Assembly: GCA_030706145.1 (NCBI GenBank) | Contig: JAUZPB010000044.1 | Span: 1 to 32,430, forward strand | DNA length: 32,430 nt | From: Bacteroidota bacterium | Lineage (GTDB): Bacteria; Bacteroidota; Ignavibacteria; Ignavibacteriales; SURF-24 | Reading direction: 5' to 3' | Part shown: positions 7,216 to 32,430 of the stretch, piece by piece | Position numbering within the stretch: the stretch's first letter is position 1 | Layout of the letters: each line of letters opens with the position of its first letter | Program-made: the position numbers and the translations under genes | The notes under the pieces: generated by a model | Database searches by the model: none | The model's input: the letters and a program-made list of their open reading frames with translations, nothing else | What the model was told of the DNA's origin: nothing

Positions 7216-10200
7216 ATGCCCAGACAAATAACCTATAAAATGATATTTCTCATTTTATGGAGTAGTCTTTGCTTTTCGCAAGTCTTACCCTTAAAAAACT
7301 ATTCAGTTAATGATGGTCTGCCCAATCCTTATGTCTCCTCGGTTGTTCAGGATAAAATGGGTTTTATATGGTTCGGTACAAATTATGGCATTAGCAAATT
7401 TGATGGTACCAGCTTTAAGAATTATTCGACTGACCAGGGGCTTATTAGTAATCATATCTATACTCTTTATCTGGACTCAAAAGGAAATATCTGGATTGGC
7501 ACAAGTGCAGGTGTAAGCAAATTTGATGGTCACCGCTTTATAAACTATTCTCTTGAAAAACAATTAATTGACCGTAGAATAAGAGCAATTGCTGAAGATA
7601 AATCTGGAAATATCTGGCTTGGCTCTTCTGGTACAGGTATTTGTAAGCTGACAACTGAGAATAAATTTGTTACTTACAAACAAATAAATGGAAATTATAA
7701 CATAAGAGTTAACCATATTTTCCCCGACTCAAAAGGTAACCTCTGGTTCTCAACATTTGATTATGGAATTCTTAAATACCAAAATGGTACATTCTTTCAC
7801 TATGGCGTAAAAGATGGCATAATAAGCGACTTTATCTGGAATACACTTGAGGATAAAAATGGGGATCTGTGGTTTTCCTCGCAGTCTGGTATAATTAAAT
7901 ATCATAACGGAAAATTTTTTAATTTCCAGGAAATTGATCACCTGAAATTCCCAACTCTCTGGACTTCCACTGAAGATAATAAACATAACCTGTGGTTTGG
8001 CTCCAATGAATTGGGCGTTTTTAAGTATTCATCTGGTAAGTTTACAAGATTTACTACTGCAAACGGTTTTGCTGATAATAGCGTTTTAGCAGTCTTTGAG
8101 GACCGTGAAAAAAATCTTTGGTTTTGTACTGCTGGTGAAGGTGTACAAATGCTGCCTTCGGATGCTGATAGATTTACTTCTTATACCAGGCAGTCAGGTT
8201 TATCTGGTAATAACATTTATTCAATTGTAGAGGATTTAAAGAAAAATATTTGGTTTGGTAGCTATGGTGATGGAATAAGTAAATATGATAATGGAAAGTT
8301 TGTTACATATACTAAACAGCATGGACTTCCAAATAATTATATATATAAACTATATGTAGATAGGAAAGGTAATATTTGGATCGGCAGTAGAAGTGGGGTT
8401 AGTAAATTCTTTAATGGTAAATTTACTAATTATGGAGTAAAGGAGGGGCTTGCTGATAAGTATGTTTACTCAATCCTGGAGGATCATAATGGCAATATGT
8501 GGTTTGGAACCTTTAGAGGTCTGTCAAAATTCTCAAAAGGGAAATTTACTAATTACAGCATTAAAGATGGGCTTTCAAGTAATATTATATGGGACATTTT
8601 TGAAGATAGAAAGGGCAATATATGGTTAGCTACTGATGGTGGGGGAATTAATAAGTTAAGTGGAAACAAAATTGAAGTCTTTTCAACCCAAAATGGTCTT
8701 GCTTCAAATAGCATTACTTCAATTTATGAGGACAGAAAAGGTGACCTATGGTTCGGAACAGATGGAGGTGGACTTAGCAGATATTCTAATGGTAAGTTCA
8801 GTAATCTTATTACAAAAAATGGTTTGGCTAGTAACATTGTAAATTTCATTACTCAGGATGATAATAATAATTATTGGATCGGTACAAGTAATGGCATAAA
8901 TGTATATAATGGCAAGGATATAATATACTTCTCATGCCATGACGGACTTATCACTAATCAAATGAACCAGTCTGCTGTATTAAAAGACTCACAAGGTAAT
9001 CTTTGGTTTGGTACGGCAAAGGGAGTTACAAGATTTAATAAATCCTTTGAAAGCTCAAACCATGTCTCTCCGCTTATCCATATCTTAGGGGTCGAGATTT
9101 CTGGTAAGGAAGCCCCATTACAAGACCAATATAAACTGAAATTTTTTGATAATAATATTAAAATCGATTTTGTTGCACTGTCTTTTACTTCTCCTTCTGA
9201 GGTAGTTTATAGTTATATCCTGGAAGGTATTGATCATTCATGGCATTTCACTAAAAGAAATTCAATTCAGTATGTCTCGCTTCCCGAAGGGAACTACACT
9301 TTTAAGCTTAAAGCTACTAACAACTTTGGAATTTCTTCAGAGAAGACAATTATAATAAAACTATATATTGCTCCACCTTTTTGGAAGCAATGGTGGTTTA
9401 TTGCTTGCCTGGTAGTCATTCTTTTAACACTTGTCCTGCTCAACTATAGGGCAATGAAGAAAAGAAACATTCTCTTGGAGGAAAAAGTAGAGGCTCGTAC
9501 TGAATTACTTAAGAAATCACGTTCTCTTTTAATAACTGAATTGCAAGAAAGGCTAGCTGCCGAAGAAGCTCTGCAAAAATCTCAGTTTCAGCTTGGCCTT
9601 GTTTGGGAAAATTCAATTGATGGAATGCGCATAACTGATAAAGATGGTATTGTTATTAAGGCTAACAATGCTTATTGCAAAATGATGGGCAAATCAAAAG
9701 ATGAAATTGAGGGAAAATTATTTGCACTTATCTATAAGGAAATTGCAATTCCGGAAACAATGAATAAATACAAGGAAAGATTTCAGAACAGAGAGGTTGA
9801 ACCTCATTATGAAAGAGAGTTTGTACTCTGGAATGGTGAAAATGCATGGTTTGAAGTTTCCAGTTCTTATCTGGATCTTGATGGATCCAATCCTTCACTC
9901 CTTTTAATATTCAGAAATGTAACTGAAAGAAAAAATAACGAAACTGCATTGAAAAGCTATGCCTCTGAACTGGAAGTGCTAAATAGGAAATTGGCCGATT
10001 CTGAGTCAAAGTTAAGAGAAATGAATAAAAGTAAGGATAAATATTTTTCAATTATTTCGCATGACTTGCGTAGCCCTTTTAACGCACTGATTGGTATTAC
10101 TGACTTTCTTCTTAATGACTTAGAACATTTATCTCAGCTCGAGGTTAGAAATTTCGTCCAAAGTCTGCATAACTCAACTAAAAATGTTTATCATTTGCTC

Positions 10201-10713
10201 GAGGACCTGCTGCAATGGTCAAGAATTCAAACCGGGAAAATTGAATTTCGCCCAAACATTTTCAAGCTAAATGAGTTATTGTGTTACAACATTTCTCTTC
10301 TTTTAGGTAATTCAGTTAAAAAGAATATTGACCTGATCAATGCGCTTAAGGAGGAAGTTCTTGTCTATGCAGATGAAGCTATGGTCGGTTCTGTATTTCA
10401 GAACTTACTCTCTAATGCTATTAAATTTACTCACCCTGGTGGATTCATTAAGATTAGTTCCAGAATTATAAACAATTTTGTCGAGATTTCAGTTTGTGAT
10501 AATGGCGTTGGAATAGAGAAAACTATTCAGGAAAAATTATTTAAAATTGAATCAAATAGTTCCACTCTTGGAACCGCGAAAGAAAAGGGGACAGGACTCG
10601 GTCTAATAATATGCAAGGAATTTGTTGAACGTAATGGGGGCAAGCTTTCTTTAATTAGTGAAAAAAATAAAGGTACTACTTTCCACTTTACTATTCCATT
10701 ATCGGAAAATTAA
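7216..10713 (+). CDS. Membrane sensor kinase with 14-repeat double propeller, Y_Y_Y, PAS, HisKA and HATPase domains
   Basis: This 1165-residue protein starts with a signal peptide (hydrophobic 8-21). Residues about 25-605 hold 14 copies of the 'two-component regulator propeller' repeat (GN-I/L-WFGT..G-S/V-KF), enough for two seven-bladed propellers. A Y_Y_Y beta-sandwich (about 655-712) and one transmembrane helix (about 724-744) follow, then a PAS domain (about 790-906), a coiled linker, HisKA (IISHDLRSPFN, His949) and HATPase with GTGLGL. The sensor half resembles Bacteroides hybrid two-component proteins that detect glycan fragments in the periplasm. Unlike those, it has no receiver or AraC output domain, so it must signal to a separate regulator. 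Its kinase core closely resembles that at 22175-23215. Confidence 0.93.
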   Translation: MPRQITYKMIFLILWSSLCFSQVLPLKNYSVNDGLPNPYVSSVVQDKMGFIWFGTNYGISKFDGTSFKNYSTDQGLISNHIYTLYLDSKGNIWIGTSAGVSKFDGHRFINYSLEKQLIDRRIRAIAEDKSGNIWLGSSGTGICKLTTENKFVTYKQINGNYNIRVNHIFPDSKGNLWFSTFDYGILKYQNGTFFHYGVKDGIISDFIWNTLEDKNGDLWFSSQSGIIKYHNGKFFNFQEIDHLKFPTLWTSTEDNKHNLWFGSNELGVFKYSSGKFTRFTTANGFADNSVLAVFEDREKNLWFCTAGEGVQMLPSDADRFTSYTRQSGLSGNNIYSIVEDLKKNIWFGSYGDGISKYDNGKFVTYTKQHGLPNNYIYKLYVDRKGNIWIGSRSGVSKFFNGKFTNYGVKEGLADKYVYSILEDHNGNMWFGTFRGLSKFSKGKFTNYSIKDGLSSNIIWDIFEDRKGNIWLATDGGGINKLSGNKIEVFSTQNGLASNSITSIYEDRKGDLWFGTDGGGLSRYSNGKFSNLITKNGLASNIVNFITQDDNNNYWIGTSNGINVYNGKDIIYFSCHDGLITNQMNQSAVLKDSQGNLWFGTAKGVTRFNKSFESSNHVSPLIHILGVEISGKEAPLQDQYKLKFFDNNIKIDFVALSFTSPSEVVYSYILEGIDHSWHFTKRNSIQYVSLPEGNYTFKLKATNNFGISSEKTIIIKLYIAPPFWKQWWFIACLVVILLTLVLLNYRAMKKRNILLEEKVEARTELLKKSRSLLITELQERLAAEEALQKSQFQLGLVWENSIDGMRITDKDGIVIKANNAYCKMMGKSKDEIEGKLFALIYKEIAIPETMNKYKERFQNREVEPHYEREFVLWNGENAWFEVSSSYLDLDGSNPSLLLIFRNVTERKNNETALKSYASELEVLNRKLADSESKLREMNKSKDKYFSIISHDLRSPFNALIGITDFLLNDLEHLSQLEVRNFVQSLHNSTKNVYHLLEDLLQWSRIQTGKIEFRPNIFKLNELLCYNISLLLGNSVKKNIDLINALKEEVLVYADEAMVGSVFQNLLSNAIKFTHPGGFIKISSRIINNFVEISVCDNGVGIEKTIQEKLFKIESNSSTLGTAKEKGTGLGLIICKEFVERNGGKLSLISEKNKGTTFHFTIPLSEN

Positions 10714-15447: not shown

Positions 15448-17865
15448 TTATTTGATTTTCATAACAACAAATGTAATATCATCCTGCTGAATTGAATCTT
15501 TTTGCCATGAGGTTAATGAATCCATCAGTCTGTTAATAATAATATCTAACGTATTATTTGCATTTTCAAGCAGAATTCTCTTTGCTGTCTCGGCTCCTAA
15601 CATTTCTTTATTTTCATTAAACTGTTCAATGTATCCGTCAGACATAAGCAGAATTATGTCACCTTTGGATAACTCAAACTCTTTTAACTGATAGGGAAAA
15701 TCAGAAAAACTTCCTAGTGGCATTCCTTTTATAATTACCTCTTCAATACAGTTTTCTTTAGCATGGTATATAAAAAATGGAGGCATTCCTGCAGAGGAAA
15801 CCTTAAGAAGATAATCTTTTATATAAAGAAGTGTCAGCCCCATATAAAGCTTATCCAAGTTCATTAGTTTTATTGCATCTGTAAATCTATGAAGTATATC
15901 TACTAATTCACTTCCTTTTGTTAATTCATTAAAGAGGATTTTAGAAATCGTAACCATTGTGCCAGCTTTTGTCCCATGGCCTGTTGCATCACCTATTGCT
16001 GCAAAGAATTCATTATCCTTGGTTATCTTAAAATCATAATAGTCCCCACCAACTTCTGTTGCAGTCTTCATAAATGCCGTTATTTCAATATTAGGCAGTA
16101 GCGGTATGTTTTTAGGCAACATAGAAAGCTGAACCCGTCTTGCTTCTTCAAGCTCATCAGTTTTTCTTTCATTGTCAGCTTCCAATAGTTTATTTTCCAT
16201 TTCCTGCTGCCTGCTTAGTCGTTCTTGCTCTATTGCCTTTTTTGAAAGTTCCTGAACCTGCTTTAATTGTTTTTCCAAATTTTTATGTGTTCGTGCAAAA
16301 CCCAAAGATAAATTTATTGATTGCGATATGATTAGTGCTAACATACCATAACCAGTATCTATTGTTATGCCCATGAAGGGTTTAATAAGACCAAGATTAA
16401 GAACTATATTATATATAATTGTAAAAGTAAGTATTCCAAAACCTGTAGCTAGAAGCCATGGACTTCCTTCATTTTTTGTCTTTGATGAAAATATTAATCT
16501 GAACAACTCAAGCATTGCAAGAACTATGTATATGTAAAATACATATATCACGCTCCTCGTTGGCCAAATAAGTGCCCATATTCCTAGGCAAATTGCAGCA
16601 AGAGTGAATATTATTATCCTTAATTTTTTACTGTCCCTATATGCAACTGAAACACTCAACATTCCAAAAAGTACAATGAAAGGGTTGTCTATTAAGGTAA
16701 GTTTATTAAATAAAAACACTTGCTGTGGAGAAGTAGTAAAATATATCTGATAGTAAAGAAAAAATGATAGTGAAAAACAAAGCAAACATAAGCCATAAAA
16801 GAGATTCGTTTTGTCATTAGGATAAAACATGAAAAATAGCAGGTGTAGCAGCGCTAAAATTAGTGGAATGCCAGCAAAGGTCATTTCAGTTACAATTAAC
16901 TGGTAATCTGAAGTTTCAGTTATCTTTATGATTTTTTCTGGATCACTTAAAATGGTATTAAAGCCTGTACTGAATCCAAATTTCCTGAGTGGAAGTGTAA
17001 GGTAGTTCGAATACCTGACTGCCAAAATTTGATCATGCATTCCGCTAAAAGTAATTATAATAGGTTCTCTTTGGATATGGCCAACCTCTTTATTGGGAGG
17101 ACTCCCAATTCTGCCAAGTCTTCGTATAAGTTTTCCATTTAGATATATTTCAGAGGCCCCAAATTGTCTGGCAAACAAGTAGATGGGCTTATTTACAAGC
17201 GAGGTATCTATATTTATGTGCAACCTGAACCAGCCTATCCCATTCCATATGCCTGATGTGTCATCCCAAGGCGTCCTAAGCGTACTCATAACAAACCAGT
17301 CTTTATCATTATATCTTGGATTTGCCCAACTGGTATCATCTCCAGGATGAAACTTCCAAAACGGATTTAACATGTACATTTGAATTGGGTTATCTAAGGC
17401 ATTATAAGGAAGATCTATTACTCCATTGTAGTCTTGACTTAACCAACGTCCAATATAAGTGGTAACAACAGTATCTTCAGAAACCTCAAGTATTGAGTTC
17501 TGTGGTATACTTCCATCTGAATTTATTGCTTCGGTTTCCCATGAGCCTCTTGTAAACTTATACTCAATATGACTTCCTCTCTTAAAGCTAAAAGTCCGCT
17601 TCCATATTCCTTCTGGAGTTTTTTGTAATGCAATTTTATCTGCACTCCAATTCCCAAGCTCTTCTTTATTCCCTGTAATGTAAACCACAGAATCCCTTGC
17701 ACTCGATGGCAGAACTACTTCAAAAGTAATACTCTTTTGGTTTGTGTTGTTTTTGTCTGAACAGGAAACTGGGAGTATTGTGCAAAATAGAAGTATTAGG
17801 AGTTTTAAGAAATTTTTCTCTCTTGTGCCTTTAAGACCTTTTCCAGACAATAACCTTAAAGCCAT
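15448..17865 (-). CDS. Lipoprotein-type sensor phosphatase: CBM20-like domain, jelly-roll, 7TM (7TMR-DISM-like) and SpoIIE/PP2C domain
   Basis: This 805-residue protein starts with a basic segment and a lipobox LPVSC (Cys35). A CBM20-like starch-binding fold follows at about 46-141 (VYITGNKEELGNW, EYKFTRGSW). Next comes a beta-galactosidase-like jelly-roll (about 160-300, with GWFRLHINID and ASEIYLNGKLI), then about seven membrane helices (about 325-525), a coiled coil (526-580) and a SpoIIE-type PP2C phosphatase (about 585-805). The metal-binding Asp residues are all present: GGDYYD (D608), GDATGHG (D626), SDGYIE (D743), QQDDITF (D795/D796). Such phosphatases usually dephosphorylate anti-anti-sigma factors. 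The layout suggests carbohydrate or glycan sensing outside and a partner-switching output inside. An AGGA site lies eight bases before the start. It is probably co-transcribed with the upstream PAP2 gene (27-base gap). Confidence 0.88.
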   Translation of the reverse strand: MALRLLSGKGLKGTREKNFLKLLILLFCTILPVSCSDKNNTNQKSITFEVVLPSSARDSVVYITGNKEELGNWSADKIALQKTPEGIWKRTFSFKRGSHIEYKFTRGSWETEAINSDGSIPQNSILEVSEDTVVTTYIGRWLSQDYNGVIDLPYNALDNPIQMYMLNPFWKFHPGDDTSWANPRYNDKDWFVMSTLRTPWDDTSGIWNGIGWFRLHINIDTSLVNKPIYLFARQFGASEIYLNGKLIRRLGRIGSPPNKEVGHIQREPIIITFSGMHDQILAVRYSNYLTLPLRKFGFSTGFNTILSDPEKIIKITETSDYQLIVTEMTFAGIPLILALLHLLFFMFYPNDKTNLFYGLCLLCFSLSFFLYYQIYFTTSPQQVFLFNKLTLIDNPFIVLFGMLSVSVAYRDSKKLRIIIFTLAAICLGIWALIWPTRSVIYVFYIYIVLAMLELFRLIFSSKTKNEGSPWLLATGFGILTFTIIYNIVLNLGLIKPFMGITIDTGYGMLALIISQSINLSLGFARTHKNLEKQLKQVQELSKKAIEQERLSRQQEMENKLLEADNERKTDELEEARRVQLSMLPKNIPLLPNIEITAFMKTATEVGGDYYDFKITKDNEFFAAIGDATGHGTKAGTMVTISKILFNELTKGSELVDILHRFTDAIKLMNLDKLYMGLTLLYIKDYLLKVSSAGMPPFFIYHAKENCIEEVIIKGMPLGSFSDFPYQLKEFELSKGDIILLMSDGYIEQFNENKEMLGAETAKRILLENANNTLDIIINRLMDSLTSWQKDSIQQDDITFVVMKIK

Positions 17866-28754: not shown

Positions 28755-30086
28755 ATGAATGTTATCACTTATTTCAGGAATAATAATCTTAAAAGATTTT
28801 TACTTTATATTTTTATTGCTGTAATAGTTGCGCTGATTGGATTTGTTCTACCATACAGCTCTAGTTTTTATGTCGGTGATAAAGTAACTAAGATCTATTT
28901 TGCTGACCATATTTCGGATGTCTACCAGAAAGTTATAGATGAGTTTAATGAAAAGTATAAGGGGAAAATTCAGGTTATACCTGTACACCTTCCTTTTGAG
29001 AAGTTTACAACTAATGAAAGAAAAGAGCTCCTTACCAGGTACCTTCGTAGTAAAAGTGACCGCATAGACGTCTTTGCAGTTGACCAGATCTGGGTCCCTA
29101 GATTTGCAAAGTGGGGCACTCCATTTGAATCTATTCCAAATAAGTTTGCAGTAGATAGTCTACTTTCTGCTGCTCTTAAATCCTGCGTCTATAACGGTCA
29201 GCTCGTTGCAGCCCCTTTATATATTGATGTGGGACTAATGTATTATAGAAAAGATCTTATTAGACAACTGAAGAATCCGGATAAGTTGGAACAGGATCTT
29301 ATGAGATCTCTTACATGGGATGAGTTTATTCAGCTGCATACAAGAAATCAGAACTCAAATAAACCTTTTTATGTTTTTCAGGCTGACGACTATGAAGGGC
29401 TCGTTTGCATTTTTCTGGAAATGCTAGCTGGACAAAATAAACAGTTGTACGAAAATGGTAAACTCCAGCTGAACTCACCTCAGGCTAAACATGCTCTGAA
29501 ATTACTGGTCGATCTGGTCCATACCTATCATATGTCTCCCTCTGTTGTCTCGAGTTTCAGAGACAGAACGAGTGATCTTTTCTATATGGAAAATAATGGT
29601 CTTTTCCTTAGAGGATGGCCTAGTTTTCTTCGCGATGTTAAAATTGATTTCCGCAATTCAGAAAATATATCAAATCTTGGAATTGCACCACTACCTCACT
29701 TTAAGGGAAATAAACCAGTGGCTCTCCTCGGCGGGTGGAATCTCATGATCTCTAAATACTCTTCCAAAAAGGAAGAATCTATGGAATTTATTAAGTTCCT
29801 TTTAAGTAAGACTACTCAGCAAAGGCTTTATAGAGAGGGTCACTATTTGCCAGTTAATCAAAATGTTTATGCTGATTCACTTATTCAGAAAAAGGATAAT
29901 AATCTTAAGTTCTTCTTTGGACTTATTAACTCAGGGGTGTGCAGGCCCGCCTTGGAGAATTATACAAAAATCTCAGATGTTATTTCTTACTATTTGTACC
30001 TTGCTATTAAAAAAGAACTTTCTGTAGAAACAGCCTTAGATAAAGCAACAGAAATGATAAATTCAGGTAAGGTCCTGATAAGATAA
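28755..30086 (+). CDS. ABC-type sugar solute-binding protein (family 1), membrane-anchored or secreted
   Basis: The 443-residue protein has one hydrophobic segment at about 14-34 after a basic start, without a lipobox Cys: a signal anchor or cleaved signal peptide. The rest is an extracellular solute-binding fold: KIYFADHISDVYQKVIDEFN, then DRIDVFAVDQIWVPRFAKWG, NGQLVAAPLYIDVGLMYYRK, LTWDEFIQLH, and GGWNLMISKYSSKKEESMEF near the end, the usual family 1 pattern for sugars and oligosaccharides. No permease or ATPase gene is nearby. Instead a sensor kinase starts 15 bases downstream, followed by its regulator, which suggests that this protein presents a ligand to the kinase rather than to a transporter. 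Confidence 0.88.
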   Translation: MNVITYFRNNNLKRFLLYIFIAVIVALIGFVLPYSSSFYVGDKVTKIYFADHISDVYQKVIDEFNEKYKGKIQVIPVHLPFEKFTTNERKELLTRYLRSKSDRIDVFAVDQIWVPRFAKWGTPFESIPNKFAVDSLLSAALKSCVYNGQLVAAPLYIDVGLMYYRKDLIRQLKNPDKLEQDLMRSLTWDEFIQLHTRNQNSNKPFYVFQADDYEGLVCIFLEMLAGQNKQLYENGKLQLNSPQAKHALKLLVDLVHTYHMSPSVVSSFRDRTSDLFYMENNGLFLRGWPSFLRDVKIDFRNSENISNLGIAPLPHFKGNKPVALLGGWNLMISKYSSKKEESMEFIKFLLSKTTQQRLYREGHYLPVNQNVYADSLIQKKDNNLKFFFGLINSGVCRPALENYTKISDVISYYLYLAIKKELSVETALDKATEMINSGKVLIR

Positions 30087-30101
30087 AATCATGGAATCTC
30101 T

Positions 30102-31583
30102 ATGAATGATAATATTTTCTTTGAGAAAATAAAAAAATACAGAATTCAATTTAAACATCTTACTGTTCTATTTGTAATTCTTATGGCATTTCAGGTAATT
30201 CTATCTTTTGTACATAAGGCATCACTTCAGAATTTCCTGGTTAAGACACAGGAATGGTATCAGCGGTATTCGGCTGAACGCTTGGCAAACATTACAACTA
30301 CATCACTTGAACTACTACTTGAAACTGTCGAATCAAATAAATCAATTACCCAAACTGAAAAGGCTAAGATTATTCAGGCTATTAACATAATTTTGAGCCA
30401 ACAGATTTTGCAGCAAAATGTCCAGGATATTTCTCTCCTTGTTTCTAATGGCCAGGATAACTATGCCCTTAAGGATGGCGATGATATATTTTCCTATCTA
30501 TATTATAATGATCCTAAAGTGCTGAAAAATAAATATATATCAACAAATACACTTAGACTCTATAAGAGTGTTAAAGATAACCTTACAGGTTCTGAGCAGA
30601 TTTGTAGCGTGCTTGAAGGAGAACAGACTTTCCATATCTTCGTTCCTTTTATTTTGCGTGGCGAATGCATTGGGGCATTATATCTTAAGAATACACCTGA
30701 TTTTTCTTTTATTACTAAAGAAGTAATTAATAACTATAATGAAACTGTTATTATTTATTCTTCACTTATCTTTCTTGGCCTGCTGGCTATGTATTATATC
30801 TCTTCCTATACGGTAAAAGAAAGAGACGAAGCACAGAAACTTCTTTTAGATGAACATGAAAAATATATAAAAGAACAGGTGGTCTATGAAAAAGAAGCCC
30901 TCTTTACAAAAAGAATCTATCATACCCACCATAAAGCTGAAAAAATTATGGGCTTTATTAAGGAGGACCTTATTCACCTTTCCCCAAATAACATAGATGA
31001 AATAAAGTATAGAATAACACAATATTCTAATTTTATCTCAAGAGTTATCTATGATATGAAATGGTTCGATCCTCCGGTTCAGACTATAAGGAATGTTATA
31101 TTTCAAACAAACTTAAATGAGGTTATTAAGTTCATTGTCGATAATATTTTCCTAAGGATCTCAAGTAACGTTGGAATGTATTCTTTTAATCTGGAACTCG
31201 ATAAAAATATTCCAATAATTCATATTAACGAGTTTGTAATCTGGGAGATTATTGAACCTCTTGTTCAAAATAGTATAGACCATGGGGCTAAGAGAACTCT
31301 AAATATTACAATTAAGACATGCTATTCACAAAAGGAAAATACTACACGCGTATTCATAAAAGACGATGGCTATGGAATAATGCCCGATCTTCTGGAAAAA
31401 AATAAAGACGGAGTAAAGAGGATTTTCCTCGAAAATACTTCAACAAAAAAAGAAAGTGGGCGCAACAGAGGCTATGGCTGCTTTCTTGCTTATACAATGG
31501 CCCGTGAAAGGTGCTGCTGGGATCTCGATGTGGAAAACCTTGCCGAGGGTGGATGCCAGTTTATTATTACTCTAAAGAATTGA
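30102..31583 (+). CDS. Membrane sensor histidine kinase with atypical phospho-acceptor region
   Basis: The 493-residue protein has transmembrane helix 1 at about 20-38 and a periplasmic sensor (about 39-214) that begins with a long helix and contains FVPFILRGECIGALYLKN, a Cache/PAS-like strand pattern. Transmembrane helix 2 (about 215-236), a coiled linker and a kinase core follow. The ATPase half is recognisable: N-box EIIEPLVQNSIDHG (Asn390), G1 DDGYG (421-425), and G2-like GRNRGYGCFLAY (453-464). The expected HExxxP H-box is absent; RIYHTHHKAEKIMG offers His274, His276 and His277. It lies 15 bases after the solute-binding protein gene and 14 before the regulator gene, a tight operon. Confidence 0.82.
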   Translation: MNDNIFFEKIKKYRIQFKHLTVLFVILMAFQVILSFVHKASLQNFLVKTQEWYQRYSAERLANITTTSLELLLETVESNKSITQTEKAKIIQAINIILSQQILQQNVQDISLLVSNGQDNYALKDGDDIFSYLYYNDPKVLKNKYISTNTLRLYKSVKDNLTGSEQICSVLEGEQTFHIFVPFILRGECIGALYLKNTPDFSFITKEVINNYNETVIIYSSLIFLGLLAMYYISSYTVKERDEAQKLLLDEHEKYIKEQVVYEKEALFTKRIYHTHHKAEKIMGFIKEDLIHLSPNNIDEIKYRITQYSNFISRVIYDMKWFDPPVQTIRNVIFQTNLNEVIKFIVDNIFLRISSNVGMYSFNLELDKNIPIIHINEFVIWEIIEPLVQNSIDHGAKRTLNITIKTCYSQKENTTRVFIKDDGYGIMPDLLEKNKDGVKRIFLENTSTKKESGRNRGYGCFLAYTMARERCCWDLDVENLAEGGCQFIITLKN

Positions 31584-31597
31584 GTTAAGGGATTGCT

Positions 31598-32430
31598 ATG
31601 TTGAACAATAGACCAATTAATGTGCTTCTGATCGAAGATGAAGACTATGATGTAAGAAGGGTGAAAAACACAATTAGACCCTTTGAAGACAAAATTAATA
31701 TTGTATCAGTTGTCTCAAGTGGCATTGAGGCAGTTGACCTTCTTAAAGAAAATTCGAAAAATTATGATGTGGTAATCATGGACTTCCAGATTGCTGGTGG
31801 TCTTATGGGAGAGGCTTTAATTGCAAATATTAAAGAAATTGACCCTCTTTTGCAGATAATTGTTATAACAAAAATGACAATAAATGTTACGGATTTTAAG
31901 TTTGCCAATGCACTTATTAAAGCTGGCGCATTCTGGTATTGTACTAAATATCCAGGAGATATTGTCCATTATATTTATCAACCTACGGATTTTATTCTTA
32001 GTATTTTTAATGCCTTTGAAAAAAAGAAACTTGAACAGGACCGTTATAGATCTAATAAGAAACTCTCCAGAAATGTAAACGATATCTTATCGCAAAGAAA
32101 GATTGTAGGTGCTTCCAGACCCATAGATGAACTAAAACAGCAGATCTTGAAATGTGCAAAATCAAATACTAGTATTCTCATCAGTGGCCAGTCGGGTACA
32201 GGTAAAGAACTTGTAGCTGCTAACATACATTACCAGTCAGATAGACGTTTTGAAAATTTCGTTGCTATTAATTGCGGAAGTCTCCCTCACGATTTAATTG
32301 AAAGCGAGCTCTTTGGCTATGAAAAGGGATCTTTTACTGGTGCCAGTAAGAGTAAACCCGGATTGTTTGAACAGGCTAATAATGGAACGATTTTTCTTGA
32401 CGAGATTGCTGAGCTTCCACTTAATGCTCA
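31598..32430 (+). CDS. Sigma-54-dependent response regulator (partial, 3' end outside window)
   Basis: The frame from ATG 31598 runs open to the window end (277 codons visible). A receiver domain (about 7-140) has the acidic pair near E13/D14, phospho-acceptor Asp62 in VVIMDFQ, and Lys117 followed by Tyr where a Pro is usual (YCTKYPGD). An AAA+ domain follows: Walker A GQSGTGKE (197-204), sigma-54 contact loop GSFTGA (244-249, Ser in place of the usual Ala) and Walker B FLDE (266-269). The DNA-binding end is not in the window. Placed 14 bases after the kinase gene, it is the likely partner of that kinase and would drive sigma-54 promoters when the ligand is present. Confidence 0.9.
   Translation, partial: MLNNRPINVLLIEDEDYDVRRVKNTIRPFEDKINIVSVVSSGIEAVDLLKENSKNYDVVIMDFQIAGGLMGEALIANIKEIDPLLQIIVITKMTINVTDFKFANALIKAGAFWYCTKYPGDIVHYIYQPTDFILSIFNAFEKKKLEQDRYRSNKKLSRNVNDILSQRKIVGASRPIDELKQQILKCAKSNTSILISGQSGTGKELVAANIHYQSDRRFENFVAINCGSLPHDLIESELFGYEKGSFTGASKSKPGLFEQANNGTIFLDEIAELPLNA

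Follow-up and report, generated by a model that had tools for sequence, protein, structure and literature searches.

Can a polysaccharide outside the cell be read by a single polypeptide that answers, on the other side of the membrane, by taking phosphate off a regulator? The question is raised by one gene in the window, by which is meant the whole 32,430-nucleotide stretch of DNA that was analysed. An initial reading, made from the sequence only, had placed an open reading frame for 805 amino acids on the reverse strand at 15448-17865, and there it is. Its features are as follows, with the basis for each.

15448..17865 (-): whole receptor phosphatase gene, with CBM20-like domain, GH2-like jelly roll, 7TMR-DISM bundle, coiled coil and SpoIIE domain; 805 aa
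17761..17865 (-): signal peptide with a lipobox-like end, ...TILPVS-C, Cys35 being +1; from the sequence and conservation of the Cys in homologues
17443..17733 (-): CBM20-like domain, residues 45-141 (Pfam match 45-111); Pfam, profile matches to solved CBM20s, and homologues
17647..17649 (-): Trp73, equivalent of Trp543 in site 1 of glucoamylase CBM20; aligned with solved CBM20s
17557..17559 (-): Lys103, equivalent of Lys578; aligned with solved CBM20s
17539..17541 (-): Trp109 (GSW motif), presumed equivalent of Trp590; by position only, past the part aligned with solved structures
16936..17388 (-): GH2 sugar-binding-like jelly roll, residues ~160-310; profile against PDB beta-galactosidases
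16309..16884 (-): 7TMR-DISM seven-helix bundle, residues 328-519; Pfam PF07695
16090..16305 (-): cytoplasmic coiled coil or signalling-helix-like linker, residues 521-592; from the sequence, a putative assignment
15454..16017 (-): SpoIIE/PP2C phosphatase domain with D608, D626, D743 and D795/D796; Pfam and conservation of the Asp residues

Architecture of the protein

The CBM20-like domain proposed in the sequence-only reading is matched by Pfam CBM_20 at residues 45-111 (E=1.2e-10, 41.5 bits, the cut-off being 23.3). No Pfam family matches the stretch between it and the membrane in this protein; a profile from 11 homologues does match the GH2 sugar-binding domains of solved beta-galactosidases (6e-10), and to call that stretch a beta-galactosidase-like jelly roll was thus apt. 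Seven membrane helices had also been proposed. The 7TMR-DISM_7TM family (PF07695) matches residues 328-519 (E=3.6e-8, 34 bits for a cut-off of 29; 4.9e-9 at genome level), and hydropathy gives the leader and membrane segments fitting seven helices, with loop charges that fit an N-out/C-in orientation. The seventh helix is weak, being below the hydropathy threshold used yet within the Pfam match. Signalling helices have been described between receptor and PP2C domains (PMC1592074), and residues 521-592 may be of this kind. The phosphatase had been credited with all its metal Asp residues, and the SpoIIE match (PF07228, residues 617-804, E=8.6e-33, 114.3 bits) is accompanied by D608, D626, D743, D795 and D796 that are invariant across the 11 homologues. 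With 49 bits against an NCBIfam SpoIIE cut-off of 490.8, the protein is not an orthologue of SpoIIE itself. Single-sequence structure predictions (pLDDT 35.5 and 43.0) were both set aside.

Among the 11 aligned homologues CBM_20 and SpoIIE match in 11/11 and 7TMR-DISM_7TM in 8/11, which puts the domain set far above chance. The sequence is that of a membrane receptor phosphatase, in which two extracytoplasmic domains are followed by a seven-helix bundle, a coiled coil and a SpoIIE/PP2C domain that is intact, and the whole is conserved as one piece. Its two sugar-binding-like domains probably sense sugar outside the cell, and the cytoplasmic answer is probably removal of phosphate from a regulator.

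Distribution and origin

Is the combination a creature of the assembly? The genome is split into 345 contigs, one of which is, in its entirety, the window, and an assembly chimera, or a chance domain call, had to be considered. However, a paralogue of the same architecture lies on another contig of the same genome (C278, L046) and the architecture recurs in 11 other genomes, leaving either notion with next to no probability; the chimera is rejected on the strength of these homologues. Intact proteins with the whole architecture were found in G003, G004, G014, G016, G018, G026, G029, G037, G058 (two), G106 and G295, which, with both of those in the window genome (G000), comes to 14 proteins from 12 genomes. 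Two broken CBM20-7TMR-SpoIIE copies, from G117 and G152 of one family, f10 (L093:7523-8831 (+) and L094:4128-6481 (-)), bring the CBM20-bearing forms considered below to 16.

A type IX sorting tail and a flagellar gene in the window suggest a motile bacterium from the Bacteroidota/Ignavibacteria side of the tree. When 395 genomes of the phylum were sampled, matches from outside the window’s class started after the CBM20 part, so that in this sample the CBM20 form is seen only within the class. A maximum-likelihood tree of the core, from jelly roll to SpoIIE, was made with 14 CBM20-bearing and 15 CBM20-less proteins. On it possession of CBM20 needs 2 changes, the mean being 9.9 once the labels are shuffled, and a single change suffices in 22% of bootstrap core trees. 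The CBM20-bearing forms appear to be one clade or nearly one, with the window protein near the base of the group, and the pattern would be explained by one gain or loss, perhaps two. The tree of the short CBM20 module itself has 6 changes and gives no single origin, but with ~110 columns and long branches it was accorded little weight relative to the core tree. Purifying selection is acting on the closest pair, G016/G029, with Ka/Ks of 0.10 in the CBM20 part and 0.06-0.07 elsewhere in the protein. A search of IMG/VR yielded no relative, a scan of contigs only a spirochaete SpoIIE locus, and a plasmid search only partial matches.

A probable lipid anchor that accompanies the CBM20-like domain

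The sequence-only reading had the chain begin with a lipobox and a lipid anchor, which conservation across the group supports, with a qualification for the window copy, whose LPVSC fails a strict PROSITE-like lipobox pattern by having Pro at -3. A Cys is at the expected place in 16/16 of the CBM20-bearing forms, the two broken copies included, and the strict pattern is satisfied by 11/16 of them versus 0/15 of the CBM20-less relatives, these being counts of related forms in which the events are not independent. Most of the CBM20-less relatives have ordinary Sec-like leaders at that end. With the Cys in every form that has CBM20 and the strict lipobox in none that lacks it, anchor and domain seem to travel together, and we infer that the CBM20-bearing receptors are lipidated.

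That CBM20-less relatives exist suggests a core sensor made up of jelly roll and seven-helix bundle, to which the lipidated CBM20-like module would add an input or a tether. The clade, in which the same core occurs with and without this module, offers a direct test of what a glycan-binding domain contributes to control of a receptor.

What might the CBM20-like module bind?

A profile of the module matches solved CBM20s with E of ~1e-7 to 1e-8, its first ~65 residues aligning, and W73 and K103 fall at what we take to be the positions of Trp543 and Lys578 (glucoamylase numbering). The alignments stop just after K103, and W109 is for that reason equated with Trp590 from its position. The orthologues were checked for a general loss of the ligand aromatics, and what was seen is retention: W73 is Trp in 16/16 receptors and W109 in 15/16, with K103 being Lys in 15/16, and in the 23 other modules compared all three are invariant (23/23 each). 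The likeness to the starch-binding domains of glucoamylase, CGTase, beta-amylase and STBD1 is accordingly one of the first ~65 residues, with the equivalents of Trp543 and Lys578, whereas the C-terminal third, the last ~35 residues, aligns with no solved CBM20 and has a signature of its own, GSWxxEAxxxDGxIPxN...DTT...W.

Nor are the proteins that harbor the module amylolytic. Within the window genome CBM_20 matches two receptors and one esterase only, and none of its GH13 enzymes carries the domain. The nearest modules are on an esterase, a beta-lactamase-family hydrolase and a DUF5687 permease, with none on starch enzymes. Esterases of ~390 aa, a family represented in many genomes of the class, have the same module at the N-terminus; a secreted-looking example is at L047:5467-6612 (-) on contig C54 of the window genome. 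A beta-lactamase-family serine hydrolase (L120:1-1197 (+), G051:C157) has it at the C-terminus, with similar C-terminal modules at L121 and L122. In a DUF5687 permease (L095:8179-10134 (-), G037:C83), whose gene adjoins one for an ABC-type ATP-binding protein, a member of the same subfamily sits as an insertion between membrane helices.

What of starch? The window genome has many GH13 matches, several of which start with Sec-like leaders, making extracytoplasmic alpha-glucan chemistry likely here. A true receptor for alpha-glucan (starch, glycogen or maltodextrin) that controls its use would fit with these secreted-looking enzymes, with the CBM20 match and with the retained Trp543/Lys578 equivalents, but we consider it unlikely given that no GH13 enzyme of the genome bears CBM20, that the closest modules are on non-amylolytic proteins and that the receptor is without conserved neighbors. 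For the first two of these reasons, and with the last ~35 residues unlike any solved CBM20, starch is a possible ligand and not more; the sequence-only reading is borne out as to a CBM20-like domain, not as to ‘starch-binding’ in the strict sense.

A different reading has the CBM20-like domain serve as a tether or spacer that fixes the receptor to some polymer of the periplasm or to a partner protein, for instance the esterase or permease that bears the module, with the jelly roll and seven helices sensing the signal. The CBM20-less relatives keep jelly roll, seven helices and SpoIIE and therefore the core works without the module, which moreover occurs in four unrelated protein contexts. Against this, nearly every copy retains Trp and Lys where a binding site would be expected to have them, and we rate a mere tether as possible though on the doubtful side.

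The output

In the window genome STAS is matched seven times and two genes are strongly RsbW-like; its contig C1 has SpoIIE, STAS and RsbW-like genes clustered together. The SpoIIE domains closest to that of the receptor, with 41-51% identity, are in proteins of ~1050-1280 aa encoded in tandem arrays, and the one array protein scanned by Pfam has Reg_prop, Y_Y_Y and SpoIIE; the arrays are apparently an expansion of propeller-sensor phosphatases. They are at L096-L098 (G036:C38) and L099-L100 (G009:C10), beside STAS genes, and that of G036 is flanked by an RsbW-like ATPase (PF13581, 1.5e-18) and STAS (6e-12 and 1.6e-16). Where the function of a SpoIIE-type PP2C domain is known, its substrate is mostly a STAS protein.

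With STAS and RsbW-like genes adjoining the nearest arrays and with the window genome encoding both, partner switching is plausible. The sequence-only reading had it triggered by carbohydrate, and the genes that such switching would use exist, but in none of the genomes examined is a STAS or RsbW-like gene linked to the receptor. Might the phosphatase then have some other target? That missing linkage speaks for another target, as does the derivation of the partner evidence from related SpoIIE genes only; the usual STAS substrates of such domains and the company kept by the nearest arrays, STAS and RsbW-like genes alike, speak against it, and we think it improbable.

Across the genomes checked the receptor has no conserved neighbors, the same-genus pair G016/G029 excepted. 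Positions 28755-32428 (+) of the window have genes for a solute-binding protein, a kinase and a sigma-54 response regulator in a row. Such a set is near the receptor in the window, G016 and G029, but the other genomes checked have it in another place or lack it; its proximity is put down to chance.

A possible course of events

The explanation that we favor as a whole, and of which we are about half persuaded, is of a glycan-sensing, lipid-anchored receptor phosphatase with STAS-directed output. Signal peptidase II would remove the leader and Cys35 would be acylated, so that the CBM20-like domain would be fastened by its N-terminus to the inner membrane, on the outer side and next to the seven-helix bundle. 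An extracytoplasmic saccharide or glycan would be held by the CBM20-like site (W73, K103 and W109), by the jelly roll, or by both, and its binding would shift the bundle, then the coiled coil and then the SpoIIE domains, probably as a dimer. These may dephosphorylate a STAS-type anti-anti-sigma protein, or one similar to it, encoded elsewhere, with consequent release of a regulator held by an RsbW-like kinase. A bolder proposal, which we regard as speculative and rather doubtful, is that through the lipid-anchored CBM20-like input a polysaccharide outside directly drives partner switching, and that occurrence of the module on esterase, hydrolase and permease marks a single glycan-handling system.

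Relation to known systems

To our knowledge the ligand has been established for few bacterial 7TMR-DISM receptors. Such receptors have an outer domain predicted to bind carbohydrate, seven helices and a variable cytoplasmic output (PMC6107284, PMC8846402), and all three, the first again as a prediction, are shared by the window receptor. Where 7TMR-DISM receptors (PF07695) have DISMED1 or DISMED2 outside, however, the outer part here is a GH2-like jelly roll preceded by a CBM20-like domain that is presumably lipid-anchored, and the output is SpoIIE; neither DISMED1 nor DISMED2, which are optional in the superfamily, has a Pfam match in the protein. With the PP2C phosphatases of SpoIIE, RsbU and RsbP type it has in common the SpoIIE domain, the full set of metal Asp residues and a coiled coil before them, and it differs in having an extracytoplasmic double domain and a seven-helix bundle as input.

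Laforin also has CBM20 and a phosphatase, of dual specificity, in one chain. It is soluble, its phosphatase acts on the glycan itself, and the phosphatase folds of the two are unrelated. In the open-access literature, outside of which are most subscription journals, we found no paper on 7TMR-DISM with SpoIIE, on CBM20 with a sensor and seven helices, or on a starch-binding domain with SpoIIE. The assembly of known parts is real and conserved, and apparently undescribed. Should the receptor bind glycan, it would connect the sensing of polysaccharide with SpoIIE partner switching, a connection absent from the papers searched.

Nearest in phosphatase sequence are the Reg_prop/Y_Y_Y-SpoIIE receptors of the same order, the ~1250-aa proteins of the tandem arrays, whose input, by contrast, is a beta-propeller with no 7TMR-DISM or CBM20 match. 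The window itself encodes, at 7216-10713 (+), a sensor kinase of 1165 aa that combines 13 Reg_prop propeller repeats with Y_Y_Y, PAS and kinase domains.
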